From Schlesneria sp. (GTDB taxonomy: Bacteria > Planctomycetota > Planctomycetia > Planctomycetales > Planctomycetaceae): a stretch of 64,000 bases of DNA. Every line of letters begins with the position of its first letter. Position 1 is the first letter of the stretch. The stretch lies in the NCBI GenBank assembly GCA_028291515.1, contig JAQGHU010000022.1, forward strand, positions 124,001 to 188,000, in the 5' to 3' direction. The notes under the pieces were generated by a model that was given only the letters and a program-made list of their open reading frames with translations, was not told where the DNA came from and did not search any database. The translations under genes were made by a program, and so were the position numbers. Shown here piece after piece: positions 1,113 through 53,255 of the stretch.

Positions 1113-1138
1113 CGGCGGGAAGAATTCACTTCCCGCCG
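1113..1138 (+). terminator. Hairpin terminator downstream of the RRM gene
   Basis: CGGCGGGAAG-aattca-CTTCCCGCCG followed by TGTTTAT. Confidence 0.7.
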
Positions 1139-6739: not shown

Positions 6740-7109
6740 GCGGCAATCCAGTTTTCCCAGATGAGACTTACCCGATTGTAAGTCGCCACCGGAGGGGAGT
6801 CGAGGTGTCATCTCACCGACAGGCATCCCGACAACGCCCCGAATAGTCCGAATTGCTGGTGACTTCGAGGTGGCCGACAAATGTCATTAGCAATGAAAAC
6901 CACATAGCATTGCTCAGAGATTGCCGTTCGTCGCGACGACTTTGGAGGGGCTATAATGATCGCAATCAAGCGAGTCACCAAATTACCGCAGAATTCGAGT
7001 TTGATGACCACTTGGTCAGATTCGGCAGAACCGGCATGTCACTTGAATCGTCGCCCTTTGAGAACGCTGCAGGGATATTCGTCGTCGACTCTTCATTGCC
7101 AGAGAGGTT

Positions 7110-28261: not shown

Positions 28262-28333
28262 GGGCTGGTAGCTGAGACGGTATAGCGCCTGGCTGAAGAC
28301 CAGGAGAGAAGGATTCGAGCGCCTTCCAGCCCA
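28262..28333 (+). tRNA. tRNA-Phe(GAA), non-canonical
   Basis: GGGCTGG TA GCTG AGACGGTA TAGC G CCTGG CTGAAGA CCAGG AGAG AAGGA TTCGAGC GCCTT CCAGCCC A; A53.G61 mismatch. Confidence 0.8.
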
Positions 28334-28357
28334 TTTCCGCGGCACAGCCACGGAAAT
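28333..28357. repeat. Triloop hairpin H1 abutting tRNA-Phe 3' end
   Basis: ATTTCCGCGGC-aca-GCCACGGAAAT. Confidence 0.75.
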
Positions 28358-28444
28358 AAAGCAGTAGAGCGGAGGAAGTAGTAAGGAGACAAGAACGAGC
28401 CTCAACCGCTCGTACTGCGGTCTACTCTCTACTTTCCACTCTCT
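28358..28444 (+). repeat. 87-bp spacer direct repeat, copy 1
   Basis: AAAGCAGTAGAGCGGAGGAAGTAGTAAGGAGACAAGAACGAGCCTCAACCGCTCGTACTGCGGTCTACTCTCTACTTTCCACTCTCT. Confidence 0.9.
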
Positions 28445-28465
28445 AGTTTTTCACAACACGCACAC

Positions 28466-28537
28466 GGCCCGTTCGACTTCTGGTGAGGTTGCCAGTCTTT
28501 CACGCTGGCCAGGTGGGTTCGAATCCCACACGGGTCA
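28466..28537 (+). tRNA. tRNA-Glu(TTC)
   Basis: GGCCCGT TC GACT TCTGGTGA GGTT G CCAGT CTTTCAC GCTGG CCAG GTGGG TTCGAAT CCCAC ACGGGTC A. Confidence 0.85.
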
Positions 28538-28547
28538 CTTCAGTATT

Positions 28548-28619
28548 CAGAATGTAGGGGAGCGGTACCCCGCGTGGTCTGGGCCCACGAGGTCGTCGGT
28601 TCGAATCCGGCCATTCTGA
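28548..28619 (+). tRNA. tRNA-Pro(TGG), C33
   Basis: CAGAATG TA GGGG AGCGGTA CCCC G CGTGG TCTGGGC CCACG AGGTC GTCGG TTCGAAT CCGGC CATTCTG A; retains C1-G72/A73. Confidence 0.8.
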
Positions 28620-28643
28620 TTCATGCAGCAAAGCTGCATGAAT
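28619..28643. repeat. Triloop hairpin H2 abutting tRNA-Pro 3' end
   Basis: ATTCATGCAGC-aaa-GCTGCATGAAT (11 bp perfect). Confidence 0.85.
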
Positions 28644-28730
28644 AGAGCAGTCGAGCGGAGAAAATAGTAAGTAGTCAAGAACGAGCCTCCACCGCTCGTA
28701 CTGCGGTCTACTCTCTACTTTCCACTCTCT
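28644..28730 (+). repeat. 87-bp spacer direct repeat, copy 2
   Basis: AGAGCAGTCGAGCGGAGAAAATAGTAAGTAGTCAAGAACGAGCCTCCACCGCTCGTACTGCGGTCTACTCTCTACTTTCCACTCTCT. Confidence 0.9.
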
Positions 28731-28774
28731 TCTTCTCCACTTGATCAATGCGAGAGTCAACAGTTAGCAGCCAA

Positions 28775-28845
28775 CGCCTGGTGATGTAACGGCAGCATGT
28801 TGTCCTGATAAGGCGACAGCAGTGGTTCAACTCCACTCCAGGCGA
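28775..28845 (+). tRNA. tRNA-Ile(GAT), non-canonical
   Basis: CGCCTGG TG ATG TAACGGCAG CAT G TTGTC CTGATAA GGCGA CAGC AGTGG TTCAACT CCACT CCAGGCG A. Confidence 0.75.
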
Positions 28846-28937
28846 GTCACTGCCAGCGATAGTCGTTTCGAATGAGACCAAGGTCACAAATACCATGACA
28901 AGATTTCGCGAGTACAAACGTCACCACTTCCTCACCT

Positions 28938-29009
28938 GGGGACGTGGTGTAACGGCAGCACATCAGGCTTTTACCCTGACAGGCGAGGGTTCGAATCCCT
29001 CCGACCCCA
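28938..29009 (+). tRNA. tRNA-Lys(TTT), A5.A68 mismatch
   Basis: GGGGACG TG GTG TAACGGCAG CAC A TCAGG CTTTTAC CCTGA CAGGC GAGGG TTCGAAT CCCTC CGACCCC A. Confidence 0.8.
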
Positions 29010-29026
29010 CTGCGGCTGCGCCGCAG
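29010..29026. repeat. Triloop hairpin H3 abutting tRNA-Lys 3' end
   Basis: CTGCGGC-tgc-GCCGCAG followed by purine-rich GAGAGAGTGG. Confidence 0.75.
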
Positions 29027-29091
29027 AGAGAGTGGATACGAGAGAGTTGAAAGTAGACCAGAGTACTCTCCCGAGTCTTCTCAGCAACTTT

Positions 29092-29163
29092 GCACGGATC
29101 CTCTAGTGGCGAAGAGTCCGCATTCGTAATGCGGCAACGTGGGTTCGAGTCCCACTCTGTGCT
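29092..29163 (+). tRNA. tRNA-Thr(CGT)
   Basis: GCACGGA TC CTC TAGTGGCGAA GAG T CCGCA TTCGTAA TGCGG CAAC GTGGG TTCGAGT CCCAC TCTGTGC T. Confidence 0.8.
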
Positions 29164-29227
29164 TTTTCATCCGCGATGACGAATGTGATTGTGATTGGAT
29201 GTCAGTCGCGCGATGGGTGACTAACAG

Positions 29228-29243
29228 GCTCTTTGACAAATTG
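29228..29243 (+). promoter_or_regulatory. boxA-like antitermination motif
   Basis: GCTCTTTGACAAATTG resembles bacterial rrn boxA (TGCTCTTTAACA). Confidence 0.35.
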
Positions 29244-29323
29244 TAAAAGATCAATTACCGAGGCGAACCCATTTGCCGCACGGACCGTCATCGGTTCGTA
29301 CGTCAATGGATCACTCGGAACAA

Positions 29324-29394
29324 GCACCCATGACGTAGCGGAAGCGTACCGTCTTGCCATGGCGGAGGTGCCGGTTCAACTCCGGCTGGGTGCA
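29324..29394 (+). tRNA. tRNA-Gly(GCC), A73
   Basis: GCACCCA TG ACG TAGCGGAAG CGT A CCGTC TTGCCAT GGCGG AGGT GCCGG TTCAACT CCGGC TGGGTGC A. Confidence 0.8.
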
Positions 29395-29453
29395 TTCAGT
29401 TGTTGGTTCATTCTCGTTTCGACATCTCGATTCGTTGTCGAAGTGAATCGTTT

Positions 29454-29525
29454 GGGTCGGTAGCTCAGCGGCAGAGCAGGTGTTTGTTAAACACCCGCGC
29501 GTGGGTTCGAGTCCCACCCTTCCCT
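29454..29525 (+). tRNA. tRNA-Asn(GTT), two acceptor mismatches
   Basis: GGGTCGG TA GCTC AGCGGCA GAGC A GGTGT TTGTTAA ACACC CGCGC GTGGG TTCGAGT CCCAC CCTTCCC T. Confidence 0.8.
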
Positions 29526-29629
29526 CTTGATACCTGTCGTTTCGGCGAACCCGTCGCTCGCCTCATAAGTCTCGTCGCCGATGATGTTCTCTTCTTCTCT
29601 ACTCTCAACTCTCTCCCCTCTACTTTCTA

Positions 29630-29652
29630 TTTCTGCGGCTATGCCGCAGAAA
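29630..29652. repeat. Triloop hairpin H4 abutting tRNA-Leu(TAG) 5' end
   Basis: TTTCTGCGGC-tat-GCCGCAGAAA preceded by CTCTACTTTCT tract. Confidence 0.8.
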
Positions 29653-29654
29653 TT

Positions 29655-29727
29655 GGCTTGGTAGGCAACGGCAGACCACTCCGGCTTAGAACCAGAGATG
29701 CTGTGGGTTCGAGTCCCACCCGAGCCA
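29655..29727 (+). tRNA. tRNA-Leu(TAG) lacking long variable arm
   Basis: GGCTTGG TA ... TCCGG CTTAGAA CCAGA GATGCT GTGGG TTCGAGT CCCAC CCGAGCC A. Confidence 0.75.
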
Positions 29728-29885
29728 CTGATGTTTGTTGTCCTCGTCTAAATTTAGAGTCTGTGTTTCAAGGCGTAGTGAAGGAGGGTGGCCGAGGCAC
29801 GAGCGTCTTCGCGAAGCCCCGGAATCCAGCCGGCAGCAATCCTGCCCCGGCCGCCCTGCATCGGTTCATTGTCAGAGTAATCCGC

Positions 29886-29960
29886 GGCACGGTACGCAAA
29901 CTTGGGATAGCGATGAAGCTCAAACCTTCATGAGTGTGGGTTCGACTCCCACCCGTGTCA
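29886..29960 (+). tRNA. tRNA-Leu(CAA) lacking long variable arm
   Basis: GGCACGG TA CGC AAACTTGGGATA GCG A TGAAG CTCAAAC CTTCA TGAGT GTGGG TTCGACT CCCAC CCGTGTC A. Confidence 0.8.
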
Positions 29961-30139
29961 TTAAACGAAGTTGATTCACGATCTGCGAACCTGCGTTGTC
30001 CTTGCCGCGTCATGGTTGTTGTCCACTCCAATTCAAATAGGGAGTCGGCACACGGAAGTGTGCCTGCTACTCTAAGGAAGCTCGATGAACGAACGATCCG
30101 ATTTGCTGAAGCCCTCTTACTTTTGCCATCACGCTGATC

Positions 30140-30478
30140 ATGAAGACAACTCGTCCTAACACTGGCTTGCCGCAATTGTCCGCGGTCGTAGCCCCTGAAG
30201 ATCTGAACTGCGGCGACTTTGTTGCCGCGCTCAACGTGATCTATCAACTCCCTTCTTTCATGTGGGGCTGTGATTCCTCGATCCCGCCCGATGAACCTGT
30301 GCTGGTGCAGTTTCGAGCTCCCAACGCCGGCATGCCACTCAAGATCAAAGCCATCTGCCTGCCGTTTGTGTTCGTGAAGATGCCGAACGGGACCACGCAG
30401 ACGATGGATGTTCGCCAGACGCAGTTTGTTCGTCTGCAAACGGAATATGCCGAGCATGTCTGGAACGAACTGAAGTAG
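30140..30478 (+). CDS. Small hypothetical protein embedded in the tRNA array
   Basis: 112 aa MKTTRPNTGLPQLSAVVAPEDLNCGDFVAALNVIYQLPSFMWGCDSSIPPDEPVLVQFRAPNAGMPLKIKAICLPFVFVKMPNG...; coding-like composition. Confidence 0.75.
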   Translation: MKTTRPNTGLPQLSAVVAPEDLNCGDFVAALNVIYQLPSFMWGCDSSIPPDEPVLVQFRAPNAGMPLKIKAICLPFVFVKMPNGTTQTMDVRQTQFVRLQTEYAEHVWNELK

Positions 30479-30486
30479 GAACCAAT

Positions 30487-30556
30487 GGCAGGCGGGGCAG
30501 GTGCCCGACTGGTCTTCATATGACCGGCTAGCCCGGATCGTTACCGGGGCCTGCAA
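30487..30556 (+). tRNA. tRNA-Met(CAT)-like, minimal D-arm and ATCGTTA T-loop
   Basis: GGCAGGC ... GGGC-AGGT-GCCC ... TGGTC TTCATAT GACCG ... CCCGG ATCGTTA CCGGG GCCTGCA A. Confidence 0.6.
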
Positions 30557-30653
30557 GAATTCTACTTCCGCTCGGTACGAGCCTGCTTTCCATACCCGAC
30601 TGCTCGTCCGAAGGTCTCTTGCGAACGCGGTGCAATTGCGAGGCGCTGCGATC

Positions 30654-30729
30654 GGCCGAGTACGCAAACTGGGAAAGCGACCAGATTCAGAATCTGGTGA
30701 TTCTGTGGGTTCAACTCCCACCTCAGTCA
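30654..30729 (+). tRNA. tRNA-Leu(CAG) lacking long variable arm
   Basis: GGCCGAG TA CGC AAACTGGGAAA GCG A CCAGA TTCAGAA TCTGG TGATTCT GTGGG TTCAACT CCCAC CTCAGTC A; C4.A69 mismatch. Confidence 0.8.
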
Positions 30730-30768
30730 GTGATTGGAATGTCTCGTTTCGATTGGAAAGTTGTTGAA

Positions 30769-30839
30769 GGTCCCGTCGTCCAATGGAAGGACGTCTGCTC
30801 GACTCGCAGAAGACGATGGTTCGATTCCATCTGGGACCA
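30769..30839 (+). tRNA. tRNA-Val(GAC), C33
   Basis: GGTCCCG TC GTCC AATGGAA GGAC G TCTGC TCGACTC GCAGA AGAC GATGG TTCGATT CCATC TGGGACC A. Confidence 0.75.
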
Positions 30840-30949
30840 CTGGGAGGTGTTTGGGTTCTGGCGTTACGTGTTGTACGAAAAGATCTCACGATTGGACCCG
30901 GCATCTCGTTCTGTGAGCGCCTCCGACTGGAGGCAAGGATCGAGTTGCG

Positions 30950-37530: not shown

Positions 37531-37756
37531 CGTTTGGCCAGCAGAGCAAAAACGGGATGGCATCTCGTCGCGATCTTCGATGGAAGGATTTCCGGCGTCG
37601 TGCCGATGACGCGCCTGAGTCGGTCTATCGTCACAGCGTATCGGGGTGGGAGTACATTCCGATCCATCCTTTTGCAGATGAGCCCGAATTAGAATCTGGC
37701 GATTAATGCTTTTTAAAAACTCACTGTTGTTATCAAAATAATTGAGGCCACAAGAA

Positions 37757-38221
37757 ATGTGTCAGAGAGTCATCCGTCGAATTGCAATTGGTTTCCGACT
37801 GATTTTTATACTGACTGCAACGGCTGGTTGCATGGATCAAGTCGACCCCACAGCCAAGTTGGAAACCGGACATCAAGAACGCCGACAATCGACGTTGCCA
37901 CTCCAAGCAACAATCGATCTCGGTGTCATCGTTCAGGGCAAATCGGTCGAGACAAATCGATGGATCCGTTTTCAAAGCGACAAGCCAATTCGGATCACGA
38001 AAATCGAGAAAAGTTGCGAATGTATCGATGTGAAATTCCCTCAAATGAAAATTTTACCTGGGGAAAAAATCCTGGCTCATATTTCTTACGACGGTGCGAA
38101 AGAACCCGAGTTTGTTGGATCGCTTGAAATCGAAGTCAAACTATTCGACGAAAAAAACGATCAAATCGGATTGCTAAAGTTGCCCGTTGAGATTATTTCC
38201 CAGACGAGCGTCGAGTTGTGA
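37757..38221 (+). CDS. DUF1573 domain lipoprotein
   Basis: LTATAGCMD lipobox; IRFQSDKPIRITKIEKSCECIDVKFPQMKILPGEKILAHISYD. Confidence 0.8.
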   Translation: MCQRVIRRIAIGFRLIFILTATAGCMDQVDPTAKLETGHQERRQSTLPLQATIDLGVIVQGKSVETNRWIRFQSDKPIRITKIEKSCECIDVKFPQMKILPGEKILAHISYDGAKEPEFVGSLEIEVKLFDEKNDQIGLLKLPVEIISQTSVEL

Positions 38222-38362: not shown

Positions 38363-40237
38363 TTACGGGTTGTCGTTCTCGTTTGGGCGATGTTCCACGA
38401 TCCACAATGTTGGCGTCAGCATCCAAGCACCGAGTGGAGGAAATGGCTTTCCTTTTTCCAGACCGTTTGGAGAGACCACGGTGATGCGTTGTCCAACCGC
38501 CGACTGAGAGCGAAAATTCGGAATCACGACGCTTGCCAGTTCGTTGCTGATGACGCTGTCACGTAATTCCGCGACAATCTGTCCAGTCGCTTTGACATGG
38601 TCTCGCAGATAGAAGAGATCCTGACCCCAATCGAGGCTGCTTCCTGTCAAGTGCCGATAGCCGCACTGAGAACCACCTGCGAACTTGTTGAAATACGCCA
38701 GATGATGCGGGTAGACGAGGATTAGACTCGTGGTGCTCTCTGCAATTAGTGCGATGGCAAACACGCCAAGAATCGTGATGCGACGTGTCATCACGAAGCT
38801 AACCTGCCCCAGGAAGATGAGAAAAATCCCCAGGGACGGAAACACGTACCGAAGGTGACGATTAAATTCCGTTTGCGAACTCACTACTGCCAATAGCACG
38901 ATGGCCGGTGTCAAGAGCACCAGTTCATCGCGCAGCAGCGCTGGGCGATCACGACGAATGAATCGCGTCAGTACGACCAGCGCGAACAACCCCCATGTCC
39001 CGCAAGGAACTTTGACCAGCAGACCGTACAGATAGTAATACCACCACCCCCCATGCTGTTTCACTTCACCGCGCAGGTACGAGGGTAAGTAATAGTTTTC
39101 GAAATCCTTCTTTTGAATGTCCAGACCCAGAACGTATTGCTTTGGCAATGGAACCGGTAGTTTCCCCAACCAGGAATCTCGAAACCGATTCCCAGTTGAA
39201 CCAGGTTTGTCTAAGCCCGTGAGCGTCTTGCTGACAAATTGAAATTCCTGCAGTGGCGTACCGAAACCGTCAAATACATAAACAAGATTGATGAGATAGG
39301 TAGCGATCAACAGGACGATAGCCAGATGGTAGACGGGCGGACGAGAGTCTAACGTTGGGTCAAGATGGTCTGTTTCTGATTGGGGTCCATGCTCGGGTGC
39401 CGTCTCGACCGATTTCGGAAGCAAAGCCGAGTCTGGATTAGTACCCTCGCACTGATCTTGCGTTTTGCTGTGCTGCGATCCCATCCACCGCCACGTGAAC
39501 CAGAGTATCGGCCAAAGTGCAAAAAGTACTAGCCAACTCATCTTTGAAAGTTCCGCCAGCCCCAATGCCCCACCTGCCAGAACAACTCGTATCAGAGTCG
39601 GCTGCTTCAGCCAGCGCCAAAATGTATAGCCTGCCAGGATTCCAAACGCGGTGGTGGCTCCGTCGGGCGTAATCAATTCACCGTGACCCAACAAATTCGG
39701 TTCGAAGACGAAAAGCGTTAAAGCAACTAATCCCGCCGAGCCGCCGTATAACTCCCGAGCCCATCGGTACGCGAAGTAAGCTCCGATTAGGCTGAACGGA
39801 ATCCCCGCCCAGCGTCCGGCAATAAACAACGGCATCGAATTGACCCCGTTCGACCGGATCAAATCTTTGCCCATCTCGAATTCGACGCGGCTGCCTTGGA
39901 TGTCGCGAAACTGGCTCCAATCCAGTTTCGTGCTGCTGAGAAGTATCGGAATGCTTGTGATCATTCGCGGCAATGGCGGGTTCACGCGATAAAGCTCATA
40001 TCGCCCGTATTGCCAATGACTCACGCCGCTGACGAGAAATGGCGGTTCGAGATCGGTTGGACTGTGGCAGGTCGCGGAATACGCCAAGAGTCCCGTTTGA
40101 ACGACGAGCAACAACCAGACAATGATCCGCTCAGTTCGACTTGCAGCCGAGACGCGATTACTCTCAGGCGCGATTGAGCCTACCACTTTGTCACAACTTG
40201 TTGTTAGGGGCGGCCGATCTCGATTTGATTCGTTCAT
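38363..40237 (-). CDS. Polytopic membrane protein, GT-C/ArnT-like glycosyltransferase
   Basis: 624 aa, multiple TM segments, YRVNPPLPRMITSIPI..., GEWGY-like N-terminal Asp/Glu loop typical of GT-C. Confidence 0.7.
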   Translation of the reverse strand: MNESNRDRPPLTTSCDKVVGSIAPESNRVSAASRTERIIVWLLLVVQTGLLAYSATCHSPTDLEPPFLVSGVSHWQYGRYELYRVNPPLPRMITSIPILLSSTKLDWSQFRDIQGSRVEFEMGKDLIRSNGVNSMPLFIAGRWAGIPFSLIGAYFAYRWARELYGGSAGLVALTLFVFEPNLLGHGELITPDGATTAFGILAGYTFWRWLKQPTLIRVVLAGGALGLAELSKMSWLVLFALWPILWFTWRWMGSQHSKTQDQCEGTNPDSALLPKSVETAPEHGPQSETDHLDPTLDSRPPVYHLAIVLLIATYLINLVYVFDGFGTPLQEFQFVSKTLTGLDKPGSTGNRFRDSWLGKLPVPLPKQYVLGLDIQKKDFENYYLPSYLRGEVKQHGGWWYYYLYGLLVKVPCGTWGLFALVVLTRFIRRDRPALLRDELVLLTPAIVLLAVVSSQTEFNRHLRYVFPSLGIFLIFLGQVSFVMTRRITILGVFAIALIAESTTSLILVYPHHLAYFNKFAGGSQCGYRHLTGSSLDWGQDLFYLRDHVKATGQIVAELRDSVISNELASVVIPNFRSQSAVGQRITVVSPNGLEKGKPFPPLGAWMLTPTLWIVEHRPNENDNP

Positions 40238-40379: not shown

Positions 40380-40877
40380 CTATGGTGAGGCGGCGGCAGA
40401 GGGTGTGGAAACGACTGTGCCGCGGATCGACAGCATAAACATCGGCTGTCGGCAATCATTCGAATACACGTAGACCCTTTTCTTGAAGGCACCGTTCAGC
40501 CCTCCAAGATTCACTCGCGTCGGCAAAGGAAACTCACCCTCTGGAGGAACTGTTTTCGGCAACTCGCTTCCCACGGTCCAAATACAACTGCAATCAGTCA
40601 AAATCCGTGATACTGTTAATGGTTGCCGTCCAACGTTCTTCAATTCAAACACATGCTCAATGACCTTTTGGTCACGAATTTCTCCAGCATTCCATTCAGC
40701 TTCCTGGCAAGCGATGGCGGGGTTCCAATACTGGGATCCAAATTCACTGGCCAAGTTTCTAAGGCACGATACCGTTGCCAACAGCGCCGAGATCCCAACG
40801 AGCATATTGAGCCGGCTGGACCGAAACCGATTGAAAACTCCCTGCACTAGAAACATGAAACCCTCGACATTAACCAC
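40380..40877 (-). CDS. DUF1573 domain protein
   Basis: GEIRDQKVIEHVFELKNVGRQPLTVSRILTDCSCIWTV... Confidence 0.85.
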   Translation of the reverse strand: MVNVEGFMFLVQGVFNRFRSSRLNMLVGISALLATVSCLRNLASEFGSQYWNPAIACQEAEWNAGEIRDQKVIEHVFELKNVGRQPLTVSRILTDCSCIWTVGSELPKTVPPEGEFPLPTRVNLGGLNGAFKKRVYVYSNDCRQPMFMLSIRGTVVSTPSAAASP

Positions 40878-40889
40878 ACCAACCTCTGC

Positions 40890-43751
40890 TCACTCGGGCA
40901 AGATTGGAACGGTCATTCGCACCGGCAACTCGCCCGCCTTGGAAAACGCCACCTTTGCCAACGCAATACTTCGCAATTCGGGCGCGATGACGGTGACCCC
41001 CCACTTTCGTTCGCCCATTCCTGCGACCGAGCAATCAACGGAAGTGTTTGAACACTCAACTTCAGTCGCAGACCAATCCCCGTCCGCCGTAGCAACCGTG
41101 ATCTCACACCGACCACGACCGTTGCTCAACCTAATGCTCTGCGGATTTAGCTCGGCTTTGATACTCCGCGAGAAAGACAGCAACACATGAGCACCGGATG
41201 CATTACCCTTCTCACTAACGTCTAATTGGCAAATCTCCAACTCACCTTTAGACACCCGCTCCATCACGTCGGCTCCGAATTCCAACACAATTTCCAGCAT
41301 TGACTGATCACCGGATCCACGGATGGTGCTTTTGCAATAAGAGCGGTTCGAACGAACTCCAGCATTGGACCCCATCCCCAGAGTTTTCAGTGGAATCGAC
41401 TCCACGACTTTCACAGGACATGGTCCACAAGCGGTCGGAATCGATACCGACCGTCTCAGGACCACAGGCTCCGGACGTTCGATCGAAATCTCGCAATCTG
41501 CCCGCTCGCCTGTCGAAAGCAAGAATCCAACTGTTTTCCGTGCGTTCGTCGGACCCCATAGATTCTGATTAACGGTAATGGACCAAACGGATTTTTCTCC
41601 TGGCGATACGACGCTATTTTCCGATACCGAGGATGCCCGAATACATCCACAAGGTGTGACGACCCGGTCTACTGTGAATGGTTTCTGACCGCGATTCGTG
41701 ACCTCCAACTGAAAGGAGGCGTTGCCATTCAAAAACTCAGACGCCGCCAAATGCTTCGTCTTGAAAGAAATGTCGAAAACAGACTTCCGATCCTGGTCGC
41801 GGCGACAGAACAAAACCACGGCGTCTTTGAAATCCAGGTCGGCAGGAACTTTCCCGTCAGCCAACGAAAACGGTGATTTGGGAGGATCGAGGAGATAAGG
41901 TTGTCCTGCCGAATTCTGGCAAATCACGACATAGTGTGGCGCCCCGAGACTGCCCTTTACCACAGCCAATGCTGCCATACCGGGGCGCAAATATCGCAGA
42001 AGTTCGGGCAACGAGACATCGGACCGTGCTTCAGCGTTCAATCCATATGCGATAAGAACATCACGCATATCCTTCATGCGTACTCCTCCAGGAGTCGGCT
42101 TCAAGCTGCGTGACAAAACTAACGCATCGCAATCAATCGAAAATAGCGACAACACGGTGAGCGTTGAGGTATACCCACACTCAACAACATTAAGTCCTTT
42201 TCCACTCTGCGCACCAAATTTCCATCCTGCGTCCCAGACAATTCTCGCACCCGACTCCGCAGTGGCGGAGCGAGGTCCGGCGTCAGCGGCTGAAACCTGC
42301 GCGGTGCAATGGCTCTCGCAAGGCACGTGGGCAAGGGAAAAGACCAGCAACAAAGTGCCGCCTCTTCGAAACTTTTTCACACTGATCACGGCGATCAAAG
42401 CCAAGAGAATTACTGCATTTCCGACAATCAGCCAGAAGCCGCTACGCTTGATTTCTCGCGATGCAGGCTTTGCCGACGGAATTGTTTGGAACTTGCTCGC
42501 GACATAGTCTTGGATCGATTTCAACTGAAACTCTGGCGTATCTCCGACGACAAGGTTCAACGCCTTATCGGCATCAATCACAAGTGTCCCTGGCGCAAGA
42601 CCGAGATTGAACGAATCCTCCGTCAAGGGAGGATCCACCTCCATTTCGGAGAATACGATCTTCCGACCTGTTCCATTCAACCAATCGTAATCGACAACCT
42701 CTAACGGACCCCAAAACCCCGGCTTCCATTCGACGTTCGTGCGGATCGATTCGTTTTGCAGCGGCCCGTTCGGATCGATTTCCACAGAATGTCGTTCTTC
42801 GACGCGACTCAACGCGCCCGCCTGCTTGCCATCAAACTCCAGCGTGAAGTGACCCGGTACATGATTGCCAGGCAATCCAGCCGTCGTCCAAGTCGTCAAC
42901 CAGCCGCCGGTCGCCGATCTTTCTACCTTACTCAGCGTCGGGTCATTAGCCAGACGTTCAATGAATTCCGAACCTCGTGAAAAACCACCGTCTTTGGGAT
43001 ACGACCAAGACGGCAAATGGATAAAGGGGGGCAACGCCCAGATCCCCGACTGCATCACAAAGTTTTCCAAGTTGCCATTCGCCACACCCACCGATACCAC
43101 GGCCGGGCCGGTAAAACTGAGCTGCTTCGGCTCTTTTTGCGGCGACAGATTCGTGTCAATCGCGGTCATTTCACCCCAATGCAGAGCACCATCAAAACAG
43201 TATCGAAAGCGGTATTTATTAGTGACTGTCTCTTCAGGTCTTCGAACTGTGGTTTCCAAATCGATAAGAAAACGAGCGGTCGCAAAATCCACCAGCGCGT
43301 GGCCCGCCGTGATCAGCACGCCTTCATTACCACTCAACTCCTTCACCTCAGCAAAACCGGCCTTTCGAGCCGCAGACAACATATGCTTTTCTCGGCGAGA
43401 CCACACAGGATCTTTGTTGTCGTGAACCAACGCGACTGGACCCGCTAGCGCAGTATGCTTGAATTTCCAGCGATAGACTGCCCCAGCCTTCTCTCTCGCG
43501 CCCAACACATCGACAAGCTCCTTGAAGGACGAAACATCGTCCGCAACACAACACGACGGAACCGCTGCAAAGAGCCCCGAACAAAGAAACACACCAACAT
43601 GGCACCCCAATTTGCTTCCGGCACGCATCAAGCTCAATGATCGCAACGACTCAATGAATCGCGAAAGCATCCAAGGCCACGCTGCCGACTTCATCATCAT
43701 CGCCAATCTTTCCCAAGTATGGGTATCGCGCAACTGATTGAATCTGACCAC
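40890..43751 (-). CDS. Large secreted/membrane protein with C39-peptidase-like and DUF1573-like domains
   Basis: LNVVECGYTSTLTVLSLF ... APHYVVICQNSAGQPYLLDPP (Cys-His-Asp order of C39) then LEVTNRGQKPFTVDRVVTPCGCIRAS (DUF1573); TM segment between. Confidence 0.75.
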   Translation of the reverse strand: MVRFNQLRDTHTWERLAMMMKSAAWPWMLSRFIESLRSLSLMRAGSKLGCHVGVFLCSGLFAAVPSCCVADDVSSFKELVDVLGAREKAGAVYRWKFKHTALAGPVALVHDNKDPVWSRREKHMLSAARKAGFAEVKELSGNEGVLITAGHALVDFATARFLIDLETTVRRPEETVTNKYRFRYCFDGALHWGEMTAIDTNLSPQKEPKQLSFTGPAVVSVGVANGNLENFVMQSGIWALPPFIHLPSWSYPKDGGFSRGSEFIERLANDPTLSKVERSATGGWLTTWTTAGLPGNHVPGHFTLEFDGKQAGALSRVEERHSVEIDPNGPLQNESIRTNVEWKPGFWGPLEVVDYDWLNGTGRKIVFSEMEVDPPLTEDSFNLGLAPGTLVIDADKALNLVVGDTPEFQLKSIQDYVASKFQTIPSAKPASREIKRSGFWLIVGNAVILLALIAVISVKKFRRGGTLLLVFSLAHVPCESHCTAQVSAADAGPRSATAESGARIVWDAGWKFGAQSGKGLNVVECGYTSTLTVLSLFSIDCDALVLSRSLKPTPGGVRMKDMRDVLIAYGLNAEARSDVSLPELLRYLRPGMAALAVVKGSLGAPHYVVICQNSAGQPYLLDPPKSPFSLADGKVPADLDFKDAVVLFCRRDQDRKSVFDISFKTKHLAASEFLNGNASFQLEVTNRGQKPFTVDRVVTPCGCIRASSVSENSVVSPGEKSVWSITVNQNLWGPTNARKTVGFLLSTGERADCEISIERPEPVVLRRSVSIPTACGPCPVKVVESIPLKTLGMGSNAGVRSNRSYCKSTIRGSGDQSMLEIVLEFGADVMERVSKGELEICQLDVSEKGNASGAHVLLSFSRSIKAELNPQSIRLSNGRGRCEITVATADGDWSATEVECSNTSVDCSVAGMGERKWGVTVIAPELRSIALAKVAFSKAGELPVRMTVPILPE

Positions 43752-43760
43752 ATCTTTGAA

Positions 43761-44258
43761 TCAAGGAATGCATGGGGGGCCCTGAACAGCCGCCAAAATG
43801 TTGGGACCAACAGAGCCAGCGTTTGCGGCACCAATGCACATGCAATCCCAACCACCACCATTGCCAAGATTTACAAACAAACTGCAAGTACTGAAGCTGC
43901 AGCACGGTACAGTTATTGCGCACCCGCAAGTAGGGCAAGCAGGCGCACAAGTGGGCGTAACCTTACCGCTACAGCCACCACATGGAGCACCCACTGGCGT
44001 TCCCGGCGTGCAACCGAGCATGGGGCCGGGGCCGTTAGGCAACCCGATACCCGTACAAGTTTTACCACTGTTACTCGTACAAGGCGAAATCGTCCCAGGT
44101 ACCACACGCGGTGAGACGCCACAACTCTTCGCAACGATTTCGTTCAATGCGGAATCAGGAACCGCCCGACCCGGAAGCCCCGCATTGATCGGGACATTAA
44201 ACACAAACAGCAACAAAGCCACCTCAGCGACAACCACCGTGAACACTGCATTCCGCAT
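43761..44258 (-). CDS. Secreted Cys/Gly/Pro-rich protein (165 aa, 16 Cys)
   Basis: Hydrophobic N-terminus then CGVSP...CTPGTPVGAPCGGCSGKVTPTCAPACPTCGCAITVPCCSFSTC. Confidence 0.7.
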   Translation of the reverse strand: MRNAVFTVVVAEVALLLFVFNVPINAGLPGRAVPDSALNEIVAKSCGVSPRVVPGTISPCTSNSGKTCTGIGLPNGPGPMLGCTPGTPVGAPCGGCSGKVTPTCAPACPTCGCAITVPCCSFSTCSLFVNLGNGGGWDCMCIGAANAGSVGPNILAAVQGPPCIP

Positions 44259-44340
44259 TTCTGAGCCTCACTTGCCTTAACAACCAACACAAGGAAACAG
44301 CCAGTAACAACCCCGAAAAAGCACGACAAGGTGCCTCATT

Positions 44341-44556
44341 CTACGGACACGAATCCTCTGGGCACATACAGACCCAAGTTGAGCCACAACACACCGGAGT
44401 GGATGTCGCTTTAATGTCATCACAAACAGGTTGCGGGGCCGTGCAGCCCTCTTGTGCCACCGCTTGCGGCACCTCAAAAGGATTGAACGCAAAGTTAAGC
44501 GCTGAAAAGGACAGAAACAGCGCAATGAGCGCACACTTCAAGAGTCGATCGGTCAT
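44341..44556 (-). CDS. Small secreted Cys-rich peptide (71 aa)
   Basis: MTDRLLKCALIALFLSFSALNFAFNPFEVPQAVAQEGCTAPQPVCDDIKATSTPVCCGSTWVCMCPEDSCP. Confidence 0.7.
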   Translation of the reverse strand: MTDRLLKCALIALFLSFSALNFAFNPFEVPQAVAQEGCTAPQPVCDDIKATSTPVCCGSTWVCMCPEDSCP

Positions 44557-45947: not shown

Positions 45948-46976
45948 TCAGGCGGAGTGCAAGGCAACCGTTTGGGTTTGCGGGACAGCGGGTGTTGCTG
46001 GCTGGTACGCCAAATGTTTGTGGCGAAGTTGGTTCAGCAAGACGTTGTCTCCTGCGTGCAGCACTTCCGTTCTGGCGGACTGTGTCCCCGAGGGAGGCAC
46101 ACAGACCAGCGCGTAAGATTCGCCGAGGACGCTGAGGCGTTCTGATCGAACTTCGTAAATGAGGGCCGTGTTCTCGTCGATTCCCAATCCGACGAGATTG
46201 GGGTGCGTTTCGAGCATCTGCTGCATTCGCCACAGGCGATTTCTTTGCAGGAAATGTTGGTCGACAACGGCGTCTGGAATCAGGTCCAATCCGCGAGCTT
46301 CGATGGGCAGGTTTTCGCCCTCTTGAATCATGACGCGCGAGAGAATGGCGGCACCGGCTGAGCATCCGCCCACGACTCCATTTCGCTGGAGAACCTCGTG
46401 CAGACTTTGCTGAACGGCCGTATCGACGTAGCGGGTGGCCAGGAAATCCTGATACCCACCGCTGAACCAGACGCCAGTCGCTTGATTCAACGCGGCACAG
46501 AATTCGGCGGAGTTCGCGGTGGCTCGGTCATGAGCATTGCACAATTCCACGTGCGTCGCGCCGACTTTGCGCCAGGGAGCGAGCCAGGTGTCTTCGGTGC
46601 CGGGGGCGGGTTCGATGGCGGGAATGACGACGATTCGTGCATTCGTCCCGCCGGCAAGTTCAAAAAAACGCTGGCGGACCTCGGGAGTGACGTAGCCACC
46701 TCCGGCGATGACAAGTGCGCCGCCCTGAACACGCGCATCGACCACTGTTTGAGCGGCGGTGATCGGCGTGGCGCTTTGGAAAACATGGATCACGACGCCA
46801 AACGTCAACAGTACAAACAACGAAGCCCCGCCGTGAACGAGCATTCTGGCACTGGAAAGGGAACGTCGAATGTTAAACACGGCTTCTCCCTGTGGTTGTT
46901 TGTTGACATTTGCGAGTTTCGGATCGAACACGGCGAATTGTATGCATGTCGAACTCGACACCAAATGGGTAGTCAA
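45948..46976 (-). CDS. Cyanophycinase-like peptidase (S51 family)
   Basis: GGALVIAGGGYVTPEVRQRFFELAGG, GVWFSGGYQ, GVVGGCSAGAAILS, VVDQHFLQRNRLWRM, LVGLGIDENTALI. Confidence 0.9.
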   Translation of the reverse strand: MTTHLVSSSTCIQFAVFDPKLANVNKQPQGEAVFNIRRSLSSARMLVHGGASLFVLLTFGVVIHVFQSATPITAAQTVVDARVQGGALVIAGGGYVTPEVRQRFFELAGGTNARIVVIPAIEPAPGTEDTWLAPWRKVGATHVELCNAHDRATANSAEFCAALNQATGVWFSGGYQDFLATRYVDTAVQQSLHEVLQRNGVVGGCSAGAAILSRVMIQEGENLPIEARGLDLIPDAVVDQHFLQRNRLWRMQQMLETHPNLVGLGIDENTALIYEVRSERLSVLGESYALVCVPPSGTQSARTEVLHAGDNVLLNQLRHKHLAYQPATPAVPQTQTVALHSA

Positions 46977-47092: not shown

Positions 47093-48385
47093 TTGGCAAA
47101 CAGCACCATGCAAGAATCGGCAACCAATGTTCGCAAGCCAGCGCCCCGTCACGTTTCGTATCACGTTGCCCGGGCCCTGTGTTCGCTGAAAGAACGGTTG
47201 ACGGGGAAACCGCCGCTGGAAGTTGAGGCTCTGGAAAAGATCGCTCGGCGCGACGTGGGGGGGGCGGAGTTCGCGGATGTCTCCTTTCGAGAGCCGCTGT
47301 CGATCCTGCTGCGATCATTGAACGAGACCGCTCGGCTCAATCCGATCGGCCGGATTGCGGCGTCGACCCGTTTGCGGCAGATCCTGGTGAATCGGCTGAG
47401 CCTGGAACGAGCGTGGGGCGGACCCGATCCGTTGTCGAATGCCGCCATGCCTCCGTTGAAGCGGCCCATCTATGTGCTGGGGTTGCCTCGCACCGGGACG
47501 ACGTTGTTACTGAATTTGCTGGCAGCGGACTCGCGAGGGCGATACCTGCGGTACTGGGAATCGCTGACTCCCCTGATGGCGGCGGGTGTGAAGAAGGGTG
47601 GCGATTCGAAGACGCTGCGGCAGAAGTTAGCGGTTCAGCAGGTTCAGCGGACCAACCTGCTGGCTCCCAGTCTGGTGGGGATTCACAAGATCGAACCGCT
47701 TGGTCCTGAAGAATGTTTGTGGCTGCTGCAGAATACGATGCTGTCCTACAGCTTTCCGTTGATGTGGAACATCCCCGAGTACTCGGAGTGGTTGAACGGT
47801 CGCAGTGAAGCGGATTGGGAGTCTGCTTACCGCTATTACCTGGCGACGTTACGGCTGATTCAGAATGACATGCCGGGCGAGCATTGGGTGTTGAAGTGTC
47901 CAGTGCATACGCCGCGACTGGGGACGATTGCACGACTTGTGCCCGATGCCTGTTTCATCCAAACGTACCGCAACGTGGGTGAGGTCGTCGCATCCATGTG
48001 CAGCCTGGCTCACGAGACCCAACGGATCTCGTCCGACCACGTCGATCCGGCGACCGTGGGCAAATTGACGGTACAGACACTCGCCAGTTGGTCTCGCGAT
48101 GGAGCGACCGGCGAGGCGAGCCTGCCAAAACGAGTCTTGAACATCCATTACAAAGCACTCGTCACTCAGCCGCTGCCAACGATGCGCATGATCTATGATC
48201 ATTTTCAGATTCCGTGGACGCCGGGCACGGAAGACGCCATGCGCAAATGGTTGAACGACAATCCTCAGCGTAAGCACGGCAACCATCGCTATTCGCTCTA
48301 TGACTTCGGGCTGACGCCGGACGAAGTCATGGCGAGCTGCCAGTCGTATCATGCCGCCGAACAGCAACTCTTGAAACTCGTGTAA
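47093..48385 (+). CDS. Sulfotransferase family protein
   Basis: RPIYVLGLPRTGTTLLLNLLAAD (PAPS-binding), WVLKCPVHTPRLGTIARLVPDACFIQTYRN. Confidence 0.85.
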   Translation: MANSTMQESATNVRKPAPRHVSYHVARALCSLKERLTGKPPLEVEALEKIARRDVGGAEFADVSFREPLSILLRSLNETARLNPIGRIAASTRLRQILVNRLSLERAWGGPDPLSNAAMPPLKRPIYVLGLPRTGTTLLLNLLAADSRGRYLRYWESLTPLMAAGVKKGGDSKTLRQKLAVQQVQRTNLLAPSLVGIHKIEPLGPEECLWLLQNTMLSYSFPLMWNIPEYSEWLNGRSEADWESAYRYYLATLRLIQNDMPGEHWVLKCPVHTPRLGTIARLVPDACFIQTYRNVGEVVASMCSLAHETQRISSDHVDPATVGKLTVQTLASWSRDGATGEASLPKRVLNIHYKALVTQPLPTMRMIYDHFQIPWTPGTEDAMRKWLNDNPQRKHGNHRYSLYDFGLTPDEVMASCQSYHAAEQQLLKLV

Positions 48386-48391
48386 CGCACC

Positions 48392-49801
48392 ATGACATTG
48401 AAGCGATTGAGTGATATTCCCGGTCCGCGCACGCTTGCCGACCAATGGTCCATGTATCGACGCCGGTACCAGATGGGCCATGCGCTGCGCGAGATCAGCC
48501 AGAATCATGGCGATATCGCTCGTGTTCCCATTGCCGGTGATCCGAAGGTTCTGGTTTCGCATCCGGATCATGTGCGCGAGATCATGGTTTCGAATTCGCA
48601 GTACTTCGGGCTGTCGGGTCAAGACTTGCTGAGACGAGTCGTGCCGTGGAGCCTGATCGCCATTGAGGGGCAACTGCACGACGAACATCGCGCGATGATG
48701 CTGCTGACGCTACGTAAGATCCTGACGCGGCGGATTCTGACCACGACGATCCTGCGAGCCAACCAGGCGCTGTCGAAACTGCGCGATGGAGACGTGATCG
48801 ATCTGTATCAGTTCTCGCGTGAAGTGAGCCTGGCCATTGCGGCATCGCTGCTGTTTCCCGCCGAGGCGGGCGACGAGATCGTGTCGGGCATCGATCACAA
48901 GGCGTTCCTGGATTTGATGTCGCAAAGCAATGCGTGGTTCCTGGGAATGCCACTGGCATTTCAAAACGTCTGTCTGCTGGCTGACCTCCGTCACAACATG
49001 AAGATCATGGCGACTCGGCGTCACGTTCGTCGGCAACTGACCGACGCCATCAAAAGCGCCCGATCGTTGTCACGTTCCGGGCCGGATGCGGATGTCCTGT
49101 CGCTACTGACGGATGGCTCGGAAGTCGGCGGTGCCATGCGTGACGAGTTTCTGGAAGACAACCTGCTGACAATACTCCTCGCCAGTTATGACACGACTGC
49201 CAATTCGCTGGCGTGGGCGCTCTGGGAAACTTCGCGTCAGCCTACGTTGCAAAATCGAATTGCAGACGAAGGGTCCCGGCTTTCGGATAATCCGGCGGAC
49301 AATCTGGAATGGAGTAACGGTGCGGTCTGGACCGAAGCGACGCTACAGGAATCACTGCGGATGTATCCGTCCATCTGGGCGACATCGCGCCGGACGCTAT
49401 CGGACTATCGGCTAGGCGATTTCCTGTTACCCAAAAATACGTTCGTCTATACGAGCCAGTGGGTTACTCATCACGACCCGCGCTGGTTTACCAATCCTCT
49501 GGAATTCCGTCCCGAACGTTGGGAACCCGAATCGACTCCAGAGGCCGGTGGTGGAACCGAGAAGCCTTCAGACGCGCGACTGCAGTTCTCATTCTTTCCG
49601 TTCGGCGGTGGCAAACGCTTTTGCATCGGCAAGGCCATCTTCGATCAAGAAGCATCGTTGCTGTTGGGATCTTTCTTCTCACGCTGGGAAGCGACTCAGA
49701 TCGAGGACTGTCGCCCGGAACCACGGTTCGGCGTCACGTTGCAGCCGGATCGGCCGATGCTGGCCCGAATCAGGAAACGCCGTCCGAAGTCTGAAGCGTG
49801 A
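48392..49801 (+). CDS. Cytochrome P450
   Basis: ASYDTTANSLAWALWE, LQESLRMYPS (ExxR), FSFFPFGGGKRFCIGKAIF heme ligand motif. Confidence 0.95.
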   Translation: MTLKRLSDIPGPRTLADQWSMYRRRYQMGHALREISQNHGDIARVPIAGDPKVLVSHPDHVREIMVSNSQYFGLSGQDLLRRVVPWSLIAIEGQLHDEHRAMMLLTLRKILTRRILTTTILRANQALSKLRDGDVIDLYQFSREVSLAIAASLLFPAEAGDEIVSGIDHKAFLDLMSQSNAWFLGMPLAFQNVCLLADLRHNMKIMATRRHVRRQLTDAIKSARSLSRSGPDADVLSLLTDGSEVGGAMRDEFLEDNLLTILLASYDTTANSLAWALWETSRQPTLQNRIADEGSRLSDNPADNLEWSNGAVWTEATLQESLRMYPSIWATSRRTLSDYRLGDFLLPKNTFVYTSQWVTHHDPRWFTNPLEFRPERWEPESTPEAGGGTEKPSDARLQFSFFPFGGGKRFCIGKAIFDQEASLLLGSFFSRWEATQIEDCRPEPRFGVTLQPDRPMLARIRKRRPKSEA

Positions 49802-49859: not shown

Positions 49860-52800
49860 TCATGGGGCTGCGATGAAGTTGCCATTAATGACGATGCCGC
49901 CGATGGCCGTGCCAACTGGAATCGAGAAGGCGTCTGCGGGCGTCGTGGTATTGTAAATGTTGTTCGTTATTGTAGACGCGGATGCCACCGGGAAGGCTAA
50001 ATTGAGCTTCGGGGCAACCTGACTGAAGATGATGCCGCGATGAGTTGTGGTGTCACCAGCCAACAGCGTCACTCCGTTGGTCGTGATCGTGGCGATCGAA
50101 TTGGCTGCGACATAGTCGAAGAGCATGCCGGTGCCGCCGCCCGCCTGGTCGACAATGCTGTTGCCCGTAATCGTATCCGTACTGGTTCCGTAGAGACCGA
50201 ATCGCAATCCGGTACCACCAGCACCCTGGAAGGTGACCTTATTCGTCGCTAGAGACAGAGTGGACGTACCCGTCGATGTGTGACCTGATTGGCCATCAAT
50301 GACCCAGATCCCCGTTCCTGATGTTGCCGCAGTGGTGTCGAAATAAATCAAGTTGGAGGCGACAGTGCCCATTAAGAGAGAGGTCGTCGACGGATCTTGC
50401 AGGGAGATGGCTGTGATACCCGGGCCGTAGGAATAGATTGTGTTGGTCGAAATGGTGGCGGTGACAGGACCGGTCCAATTCGTACCGATCATTGTGGAAC
50501 CGCTGCCAAACCCGGACAGGATGTTCCCCGTCACCAACAGATTGAGTGTCGAGCCCGCCCCGCTGGCCTGTGTCAGAAACTGAATCGCTGTTCCGTTCAC
50601 ATTGGTGTCAGTGATCGTGTTGCTCGTGATGCTCGACGTGTAGAGACCTGCCGTATTCGCCTGGATTCGAACGGTCCCGCCGTTGGTGGCTCCGTTGGCA
50701 TTTAGTATCGAAGCGGTCATTGACACGGTGCTGTCGTTGAGCGAGTCGATCGCATATCCCGTTGAACCGGAGATTCGCAGGTCGCTGAGGTTGAGCTGGG
50801 TGGAGCCCGTCGACTGGATTCCGACGCCATTATTCACGAAATCAACCCAGCTGAGTGTCGTGCTTCCGAACGAATTGACCAGGACTCCTGCCGTTGTCGT
50901 ATTCTGGATCACCCCGCCTGTGGCGTACGCGCCGTTCCCTGCGATAGTGAAATTCCCTGTACTTGCTTCCAGCTTGATTCCGTATGCCCCGCCATTTACT
51001 GAGACGGAACCGAGCTTGGCATTGATCGCCGAAGTCTCGACATCAATGGCGGGGGCATTCACCGTTGTGAACGAACCACCATTGACCTGCAAATTGGCGG
51101 CGTTGTTCGCCGAGAGTCCCATCGCGTTGTGGGTATTGACTGTCACGCTATCCAGGGTGATCTTGCTGCTGGCATTCGCAAATGAAATGGCGGGCGATGA
51201 TGAGGATGAAGTCACGTTGAGGTTTGCCACATTGATAATCGCATCCGTTCCGCTGACGGAAAATCCGTTTGCGTTCGGTGAAGTGATGTTTGTGTTACCG
51301 GTGAAGTTGTAAATGGCGTCACTGGTTCCGGTCTTCGTTGTTCCCGAAATCTCTACTGCCGAGCCCCCTGTGCCGCTGGTTCCGGTCTGCGAAGTCGACA
51401 AAGAAGCAAATGTGGCATCGGTCGCTACGCTGTTGATCACGAGTCCCGTACCGCCGATATTCTTCAGCGAAAGATCATTGATGGCGATTGCGCCGTTACT
51501 TAAATTCTCTAATACAAATCCGTTCCCTTGCGCGGTGATTGTGTTTCCCGCTCCGTAGTAGGTGATGTTTGGATTGCCGCCGTTGAACACGATTCCGTTT
51601 CCGGTTGCCGACGTGATCTGAGTATTGCGAATTGTCACTTTGCCCGATGAATTCGCCAGGTTGATCGCATCGCCGCCGATCGAGGCAAACGTCAAATCAT
51701 GCAATGACACACCCGAGACTCCGCTTCCGAAAATTCCGTCTCCAGACGACCCCGTGATGGCGAACCCTGCAACTTCGGTGTTGGAAGCGAGAGTCACCGC
51801 AGTTCCTGACACGTTCTGAATCGTCGGCAGCTGTTGTCCCGCTTGCAGCAAATTCGGGATGCGGACATTGCCGCCGGTCGTGGACAATGTCTCGATCACA
51901 TTCCCCTGGCCGAACAGGTGTTGGCCGGAAGTCAACGTAATGGCTTCATTCAGCACGGACCCGCTTTGAACAAAAATGACATCACCCCCGGCCGCCTGGG
52001 CTGCCGCGACGGTTGAGAATGGATGTGCACTGGTCCCATCGGGCGTTCCGGCAACGGGGCCCGAAGCGGGGGCATAGACCTGTTCGACGATGTAGGGTTT
52101 GTCAGTCGCTGGGTCGATGGCGACTTGATTGACGGCGTTGGTTTGTGATTGCGCAACGATCACGTTGTAGTTGCGCTCCACGAAGCGGAACGGCGAAGGT
52201 GTGCTTCGGTTCCAACCCGTCGTCGGATGATCGTTGCCAAAAGGAAATTGCATCGACAATCCGACCATCACATTGCTGCCGTACAATTTATCGTGCGTGA
52301 ACAGCGTCTGTGCCGTGATCGTGTTGTTGATGACGCCTTCAACGCGTGCCTTGAAGCCGTTGACGCCGCCTGTTGATCCCCCTTCAAAGTGGTAGCCGCC
52401 GACGTAGCCTCGCACCACATGTCGATCCAGAACTGGCTGGCTGTAGCCCACTTCGGCATCGACGCCTCGCAGGGCATTTCCAATGGAAAGTGATCGAGAG
52501 TACAGAAGTTGATTGCCAGAGAACGAAGCGTTGCTGATCGTGTTCGAGAAGGTCTGTGAAGAGGTGAAAGGAAGATAAACGTTTGATCGCAGTTCGAATC
52601 TCTGGATCAAACCTTCGAAGCTGAGGCCGACTTGTTGGAACATCTTCGAGGTCGACTGATCGGCATCGTACCAGACGCTGGCACCCCCCCAGGCGTTCCA
52701 TTCGTCAAATAGTCGGCGATAGCCAACGCCGATGTTTCCTCCGACCTGCGATCGATTCGTCACGAATCCACGGACATCCGCAAAAATGAAATGACTGTCA

Positions 52801-53255
52801 GTCAGCAGGTACGGCATGTACTCGAGAGGTGTGATCGAATCATTTCGACCGAATGTCTTGCCACCAAGATGGCTTGCGCGTCCCATCGTACCAAGGCCGT
52901 TTCCGATCATCCTCTGGGACACGTCCTGTGACTCTTCGTCCGGCTCAGTTGCTATCTCTGATTCAGGGGCAGCTTTGAACGCGATCTCTTTCTTAACTGG
53001 TTCTTCGGTGTCAGGCGCGACTTCGATTGGTTCAAAAGTGGAGAGGGGTGGAGGATATGAGTCATCTGCCTGCACCGATCGCAGCCAATGATCATCCATC
53101 CCAATCGGGATGCAGATGAGCATCAGAACGACGGCAGATATCGCCCTCCACTCTGAAGCCAACCTGAATTGAATCTTCGCCAACATCATGGTTGTTCCTG
53201 CTCGCACGTCGATGGCGAGACCGAATCCAGTTGATGCACATCGCCTACGCATCAC
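49860..53255 (-). CDS. Outer-membrane protein: N-terminal inverse-autotransporter-like beta-barrel and right-handed beta-helix passenger
   Basis: GNIGVGYRRLFDEWNAWGGASVWYDADQ...GVDAEVGYSQPVL then repetitive beta-helix G-N-G-I-type repeats; 1131 aa. Confidence 0.75.
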   Translation of the reverse strand: MMRRRCASTGFGLAIDVRAGTTMMLAKIQFRLASEWRAISAVVLMLICIPIGMDDHWLRSVQADDSYPPPLSTFEPIEVAPDTEEPVKKEIAFKAAPESEIATEPDEESQDVSQRMIGNGLGTMGRASHLGGKTFGRNDSITPLEYMPYLLTDSHFIFADVRGFVTNRSQVGGNIGVGYRRLFDEWNAWGGASVWYDADQSTSKMFQQVGLSFEGLIQRFELRSNVYLPFTSSQTFSNTISNASFSGNQLLYSRSLSIGNALRGVDAEVGYSQPVLDRHVVRGYVGGYHFEGGSTGGVNGFKARVEGVINNTITAQTLFTHDKLYGSNVMVGLSMQFPFGNDHPTTGWNRSTPSPFRFVERNYNVIVAQSQTNAVNQVAIDPATDKPYIVEQVYAPASGPVAGTPDGTSAHPFSTVAAAQAAGGDVIFVQSGSVLNEAITLTSGQHLFGQGNVIETLSTTGGNVRIPNLLQAGQQLPTIQNVSGTAVTLASNTEVAGFAITGSSGDGIFGSGVSGVSLHDLTFASIGGDAINLANSSGKVTIRNTQITSATGNGIVFNGGNPNITYYGAGNTITAQGNGFVLENLSNGAIAINDLSLKNIGGTGLVINSVATDATFASLSTSQTGTSGTGGSAVEISGTTKTGTSDAIYNFTGNTNITSPNANGFSVSGTDAIINVANLNVTSSSSSPAISFANASSKITLDSVTVNTHNAMGLSANNAANLQVNGGSFTTVNAPAIDVETSAINAKLGSVSVNGGAYGIKLEASTGNFTIAGNGAYATGGVIQNTTTAGVLVNSFGSTTLSWVDFVNNGVGIQSTGSTQLNLSDLRISGSTGYAIDSLNDSTVSMTASILNANGATNGGTVRIQANTAGLYTSSITSNTITDTNVNGTAIQFLTQASGAGSTLNLLVTGNILSGFGSGSTMIGTNWTGPVTATISTNTIYSYGPGITAISLQDPSTTSLLMGTVASNLIYFDTTAATSGTGIWVIDGQSGHTSTGTSTLSLATNKVTFQGAGGTGLRFGLYGTSTDTITGNSIVDQAGGGTGMLFDYVAANSIATITTNGVTLLAGDTTTHRGIIFSQVAPKLNLAFPVASASTITNNIYNTTTPADAFSIPVGTAIGGIVINGNFIAAP

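Follow-up and report, generated by a model that had tools for sequence, protein, structure and literature searches.

Where C39 peptidase domains cut leaders in the course of export, they belong to ABC exporters and face the cytosol, and C39 leader peptidases are known mainly from such transporters. FapD, a C39 peptidase of Fap amyloid secretion in Pseudomonas, is periplasmic, and its published description settles neither the substrate nor the recognition site (PMC5557850). Here we describe a gene cassette of a planctomycete, Schlesneria sp., in which a protein combining a C39-type domain with DUF1573 is encoded next to a small, secreted, Cys-rich protein. The cassette lies in a stretch of 64,000 nucleotides (contig JAQGHU010000022.1, positions 124,001 to 188,000; hereafter the window) of an 8.59 Mb genome. 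Conserved sequence features and a predicted structure make it rather probable that the cassette serves maturation after export, whereby the C39 domain would remove, outside the membrane, the leader of an exported Cys-rich precursor. The genes concerned are the following (aa, amino acids; coordinates within the window).

44341..44556, minus strand: 71-aa secreted Cys-rich peptide; ATG start, CC...C.C...C near the C-terminus
43761..44258, minus strand: 165-aa Cys-rich precursor with hydrophobic N-terminus; LPGRAVPDSALNEIVAK as leader block; cleavage predicted before SCGVSP; 16-Cys core
40890..43751, minus strand: 953-aa C39-DUF1573 membrane protein; GTG start as listed
40380..40877, minus strand: 165-aa exported DUF1573 protein with a CSC motif (PF07610, 55.3 bits)
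38363..40237, minus strand: PMT_2 (GT-C) glycosyltransferase, 624 aa, membrane (Pfam)
37742..38221, plus strand: further DUF1573 protein with a CEC motif; converges on the PMT gene, uncertain member of the cassette

Because the genes follow one another closely (gaps of 82, 9 and 12 bases, and of 142 ahead of the PMT gene), the layout of the five minus-strand genes is consistent with a single operon. An earlier note on this DNA, made by a model from the letters, had listed these five open reading frames (ORFs), and its description of all five on the minus strand proves correct; the operon interval it gave (40380-44556) nevertheless leaves the GT-C gene outside. In the 953-aa ORF an internal Met, for example the one before RAGSKLG, may be the true start. 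This protein is organised as follows (TM, transmembrane).

about residues 70-440: N-terminal domain, predicted to be extracytoplasmic
about residues 440-490: TM segment, basic loop and internal signal-like segment
about residues 500-650: C39 peptidase domain (C525, H606, D622)
about residues 660-760: DUF1573 (C701-G-C703)
after DUF1573: C-terminal beta-rich region

The DUF1573 part scores above the Pfam cut-off (PF07610, 27.4 bits against 26.1, E 3.5e-6). The C39 part stays under the curated cut-off of PF03412 (17.7 bits against 22, E 0.0033), which is a score threshold rather than a biochemical feature; hence we use the label C39-type. Given this sub-threshold score, the domain was established through conservation and structure. 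Twelve columns are invariant in an alignment of ten homologues (17-28% identity), and they include the C39 Cys-His-Asp triad as well as both Cys of the DUF1573 CxC motif; one relative, at locus L049, clears the Pfam C39 cut-off (23.5 bits). Structure prediction, which the earlier note had put forward as a check, recovers the C39 fold: the model of the C39-DUF1573 part has the C39 order of secondary structure, with the catalytic Cys opening the first helix. Searched with this model, Foldseek returns the LahT double-glycine protease with its leader (6mpz; TM-score 0.64 target-normalised, E 1.3e-4) and several PCAT1 structures, and for the DUF1573 part it finds Ig-like domains from ciliary proteins. 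In a profile search against PDB sequences, the top match is the ComA peptidase domain, a weak one (E 0.045) in which C, H and D are aligned. As judged from conservation and modelled fold, the 953-aa protein contains a C39-type peptidase domain, in agreement with the C39-like plus DUF1573 composition originally proposed.

Regarding topology, the hydropathy profile has an N-terminal hydrophobic stretch, a strong TM segment near residue 441, a short Arg/Lys-rich loop and, ahead of C39, a weaker hydrophobic segment whose last residues are small; this layout is common to most homologues. Taking hydropathy and the basic loop as the only basis, both the N-terminal domain and the C39-DUF1573 part are most simply placed outside the membrane, and the second hydrophobic segment might serve as an internal signal peptide. 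This fits with the occurrence of the N-terminal-domain protein and DUF1573 as separate genes in L045 and L051. A LolA-like appearance of the N-terminal domain was set aside as an impression only, the model being too poor there (pLDDT, predicted local distance difference test score, 42.7).

The distribution of the C39 gene is patchy. With the protein query alone, two relatives (26-27% identity) were obtained among 59 genomes, and a single-protein search of genome contigs yielded no relative. Profiles recovered full C39-containing relatives in G008, G081, G130, G138 and G033 (same family), in G443 and G364 (same class) and in G600 and G562 (elsewhere in the phylum). The C39-protein profile matches 7 of 170 family genomes, one of which (G173) has the N-terminal part only, and 2 of 15 genomes of the window's genus. 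A profile from a four-row alignment returned two loci, both already known, and the weak family-search matches L052-L057 were set aside as DUF1573-only or spurious. Locus L019 belongs to a member of the same family-level group as the genome carrying the window. Two variants were also encountered. L048 (about 74-1620, plus strand) encodes a shorter TM-anchored C39-DUF1573 fusion that lacks the N-terminal domain and has TQLDCG as active site, with a pseudopilin-like (DUF1559-type) gene downstream. L051 (6710-9357) is a C39-less cassette with a secreted Cys-rich protein, an N-terminal-domain protein with a TM segment and a separate DUF1573 protein; its Cys-rich protein has no leader block (see below), which suggests that C39 and leader were lost together.

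DUF1573 has selenoprotein forms in which UGC replaces CGC (PMC9312934, PMC13188914), pointing to a redox role. Together with the invariant CxC motif, this favours an explanation in which the C39 protein acts chiefly in redox chemistry or folding and its C39 domain chaperones the precursor instead of cutting it. Inactive C39-like domains with chaperone roles are indeed described in type 1 systems (PMC5557850), and L051 retains the N-terminal protein, DUF1573 and a Cys-rich neighbour in spite of having no C39. However, no triad residue (Cys, His or Asp) varies among ten diverged homologues, and it is in the C39-less locus that the Cys-rich protein is without leader block. We therefore consider this explanation unlikely and retain that of leader removal.

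A second line of evidence is the pairing with Cys-rich proteins. All seven cassettes with readable upstream sequence encode a secreted Cys-rich protein directly upstream of the C39 gene on the same strand (in L002 and L044 too little sequence is available to judge), so the repeated pairing for which the earlier note had advised a neighbour search is indeed found. The partners measure 165 aa in the window, 155 in L004, 161 in L017, 145 in L019, 151 in L049 and 155 in L050, whereas L043 has two copies of 174 and 176 aa. When profiles were built leaving one member out, each held-out class-level precursor outranked all other non-training ORFs among 1791 (E 4e-8 to 7e-4), with the next decoy at about E 0.05 or worse; by this sequence criterion the class-level small proteins are one family. 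The L049 precursor is not significant (E 0.08) and the L050 precursor is not recovered by these profiles, and for both the pairing therefore rests on position and composition. L018 has a Cys-rich CC...C fragment (about 8370-8560, plus strand) in frame with its C39 ORF; this may be the remnant of a precursor that has decayed.

Secreted proteins of unknown function are numerous in planctomycete genomes, and it might be argued that the small Cys-rich genes are mere chance neighbours of the C39 gene. Against this, gene order and orientation are kept in seven cassettes, with proteins down to about 20% identity. Also, every genome match of the precursor profile (4 among the 170 of the family, 5 among the 398 of the class) lies at the C39 locus; as the profile was built from the same members, the informative part is that no unlinked copies were found among these 170 and 398 genomes. 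Finally, a filter for small, secreted and Cys-rich proteins, applied to 248 called ORFs, was passed by seven, all located in C39 cassettes or in L051, and by none of the approximately 241 others. Chance is thus very improbable, and by comparison of the sequences the pairing of the C39 gene with a secreted Cys-rich protein is conserved across Planctomycetota. An inactive C39 domain and a chance neighbourhood are both less likely than the proposed maturation. Only part of the earlier claim of two small Cys-rich proteins beside C39 is upheld: the 165-aa protein is conserved beside the gene, but the 71-aa peptide (8 Cys in total, 7 past the likely signal peptide) has no counterpart at other cassettes and no C39-type leader block. 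Neither protein has any match in a Pfam scan. The exported 165-aa DUF1573 protein likewise has no counterpart beside other cassettes.

A third line of evidence is a leader-like block. Following the hydrophobic N-terminus, the class-level precursors share the gapless pattern PG-x7-[LM]xx[IVT]x[GA][A/T/K]; aligned without gaps, the six blocks are PGRAVPDSALNEIVAK, PGTHADAQVLASIRGA, PGEPLTATEMENVFAT, PGQEIADAELATIRGA, PGQRVYVTELKSVVAA and PGQISSDRDLESTVAA. Known C39 leaders have hydrophobic residues at -12, -7 and -4 and GG, GA or GS at -2/-1 (PMC6363468, PMC10885120), and the block fits this -12/-7/-4/-2/-1 register. The joint register score is 31 at one offset against 15 at the next; none of 20,000 shuffles and a single one of 20,000 column permutations attained 31, using a scoring scheme (A permitted at -2) that was fixed after the sequences had been viewed. 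The predicted cores of the six precursors contain 16, 14, 16, 14, 10 and 10 Cys, all even numbers.

Neighbouring genes add a possible context. PMT_2 genes are located beside the cassettes of the window and of four other class-level loci, namely L004 (two), L017, L043 and L044, while the L018 cassette is flanked by a PIG-V-type gene. The window's own genome has about 15 PMT_2 genes, and because these are not rare the PMT link rests on recurrence only. In L043 a PMT_2 glycosyltransferase is fused to a BPL_N (biotin-protein-ligase N-terminal) domain (4792-7332, minus strand). MauE, which has been suggested to aid disulfide formation (PMC7794033), is present in L043 and L049, and OpgC or acyltransferase genes in L004, L017 and L044. 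In L002, L046 and L048 the C39/DUF1573 gene has DUF1559 genes immediately downstream; the link may be chance, and since there are 24-120 such genes per genome we gave this adjacency no weight. No ABC transporter appeared in domain scans of the cassette proteins and of the window neighbours scanned.

Around the features given by sequence and model (the C39-DUF1573 architecture, triad and CxC motif, pairing, precursor family and leader register) we infer the following course. The 165-aa precursor would pass the inner membrane through its N-terminal hydrophobic signal or anchor, in a Sec-type manner. Its Cys would be oxidised outside, with the DUF1573 CxC motif and, where present, MauE as presumed helpers. 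The membrane-tethered and probably outward-facing C39 domain would recognise the PG-x7-[LM]xx[IVT]x[GA] leader at -12/-7/-4/-2, and its cut at this site would free a disulfide-rich core of about 100-130 residues. PMT-type glycosyltransferases generally act on the outer face of the membrane, and the adjoining one may conceivably O-glycosylate the product. The earlier note had spoken of a peptide maturation/secretion system. Its maturation half agrees with the C39-register leader; the secretion half is replaced by maturation after export, because C39 is predicted outside and the cassette includes no ABC transporter. A more far-reaching version, which we regard as speculative, is an entire ribosomal-peptide-like pathway outside the cytosol, comprising Sec export, disulfides, GT-C O-glycosylation and the C39 cut, with C39-DUF1573 as combined protease and redox factor.

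Several observations weigh against leader removal as proposed here. Apart from the scoring scheme mentioned above, only two of the eight sequences reach p < 0.05 when tested singly. The canonical GA ending occurs in two precursors only (L019 and L004), the rest having AA, AT or AK, and one precursor has T at -4; nonetheless a strict GG is not required, because a glycocin C39 enzyme is documented to cut after GK (PMC12457901). The deep-branching precursors L049 and L050 lack the block, and the 71-aa peptide combines an odd Cys count with the absence of a leader. The structural model has a mean pLDDT of 55.6 (about 65-80 in C39) and was derived from a three-sequence alignment. The homologues do not conserve the oxyanion Gln that C39 domains usually have upstream of the catalytic Cys, although its role has likewise been questioned for LahT (PMC6363468). 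Lastly, the glycosylation and disulfide steps are drawn from neighbour genes only.

What the matured product does can be read in two ways. It could be a secreted antagonist or signal, bacteriocin- or glycocin-like, that is matured outside the membrane. The leader block is more conserved than the non-Cys core positions (0.32 against 0.21), the distribution is that of a patchy accessory trait, and the neighbourhood parallels glycocin clusters with their glycosyltransferase, thiol-disulfide enzyme and C39 peptidase (PMC12457901). The cores, however, are much longer than glycocins, and the cassette has no recognised immunity gene or dedicated exporter, which leaves this function possible though doubtful. 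Alternatively, the Cys-rich protein could be a structural, disulfide cross-linked and glycosylated surface protein with the C39 protein as its assembly protease; the same cleavage may then take place for the purpose of envelope architecture. Planctomycete walls have been described as protein-rich, with Cys-rich YTV proteins in wall preparations (PMC8567305); moreover, PMT and acyltransferase genes lie nearby, and the precursor cores are rich in G, and mostly also in S/T, compared to the background. Yet YTV proteins have been described as a trait of Planctomycetales (PMC8567305), whereas the cassette is sporadic (C39 profile in 7 and precursor in 4 of the 170 family genomes) with one or two precursor copies per genome. 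The precursors also have no Pfam or NCBIfam match, the presence of a YTV model in those libraries being unconfirmed. A surface role can accordingly be put forward only tentatively.

Elsewhere in the window, 13 tRNA genes on one strand with wide spacers (28262-30840, plus) resemble a tRNA array. Adjacent sulfotransferase and cytochrome P450 genes (47093-49801, plus) lie close to an S51-family (cyanophycinase-like) gene (45948-46976), and a 1131-aa protein (49860-53255, minus) has weak inverse-autotransporter beta-domain and right-handed beta-helix matches.

If the proposed maturation holds, export comes first and the leader is clipped afterwards, outside, by an enzyme type that is normally intracellular, which is an uncommon arrangement. 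Given a predicted outward C39 domain, a substrate family paired with it in the genome and a predicted site of cleavage, substrate recognition becomes directly testable. Furthermore, DUF1573, with its CxC motif and selenoprotein forms, would gain a possible role in maturing disulfide-rich proteins, and Cys-rich secreted products would be added to a phylum with unusual envelopes.

Compared to the PCAT/AMS exporters (LahT, PCAT1, ComA), the C39 fold and triad are the same, and the precursor block would likewise place hydrophobic residues at -12/-7/-4 and a small pair at -2/-1 (PMC6363468, PMC10885120). In contrast, C39 is here predicted outside and fused to DUF1573, the precursors bring their own export signal and the Cys-rich cores are longer; because the cassette is without ABC transporter, it is not a PCAT system. 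With FapD, which needs its catalytic Cys, it would share a C39 peptidase that is periplasmic (here by prediction) and acts after Sec export (PMC5557850). Different are the membrane-tethered multi-domain protein and the lack of recognised Fap partners: FapC-type amyloid and FapF pore had no match among the scanned neighbours, and the small proteins are Cys-rich. Also, the target of FapD was left unclear (PMC5557850), whereas paired precursors with a putative C39-register leader are present here. The glycocin pathway has a glycosyltransferase, thiol-disulfide enzymes, a C39 leader peptidase and a disulfide-rich product in common with what is predicted for the cassette; glycocins, however, use a PCAT for leader removal and export, as opposed to a GT-C membrane glycosyltransferase, no PCAT and longer cores here (PMC12457901). 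The YTV cell-wall proteins are likewise secreted, Cys-rich and of the same phylum (PMC8567305), but differ from the small, sporadically distributed precursors with their C39 partner and absent family match. In the literature on C39 with DUF1573 in planctomycetes we found no description of such a system. Summarizing, the closest precedents are FapD for location, LahT/PCAT1 for substrate recognition and the glycocin pathway for the set of activities, and the cassette would represent a new variant of C39 leader processing that is neither PCAT nor Fap.

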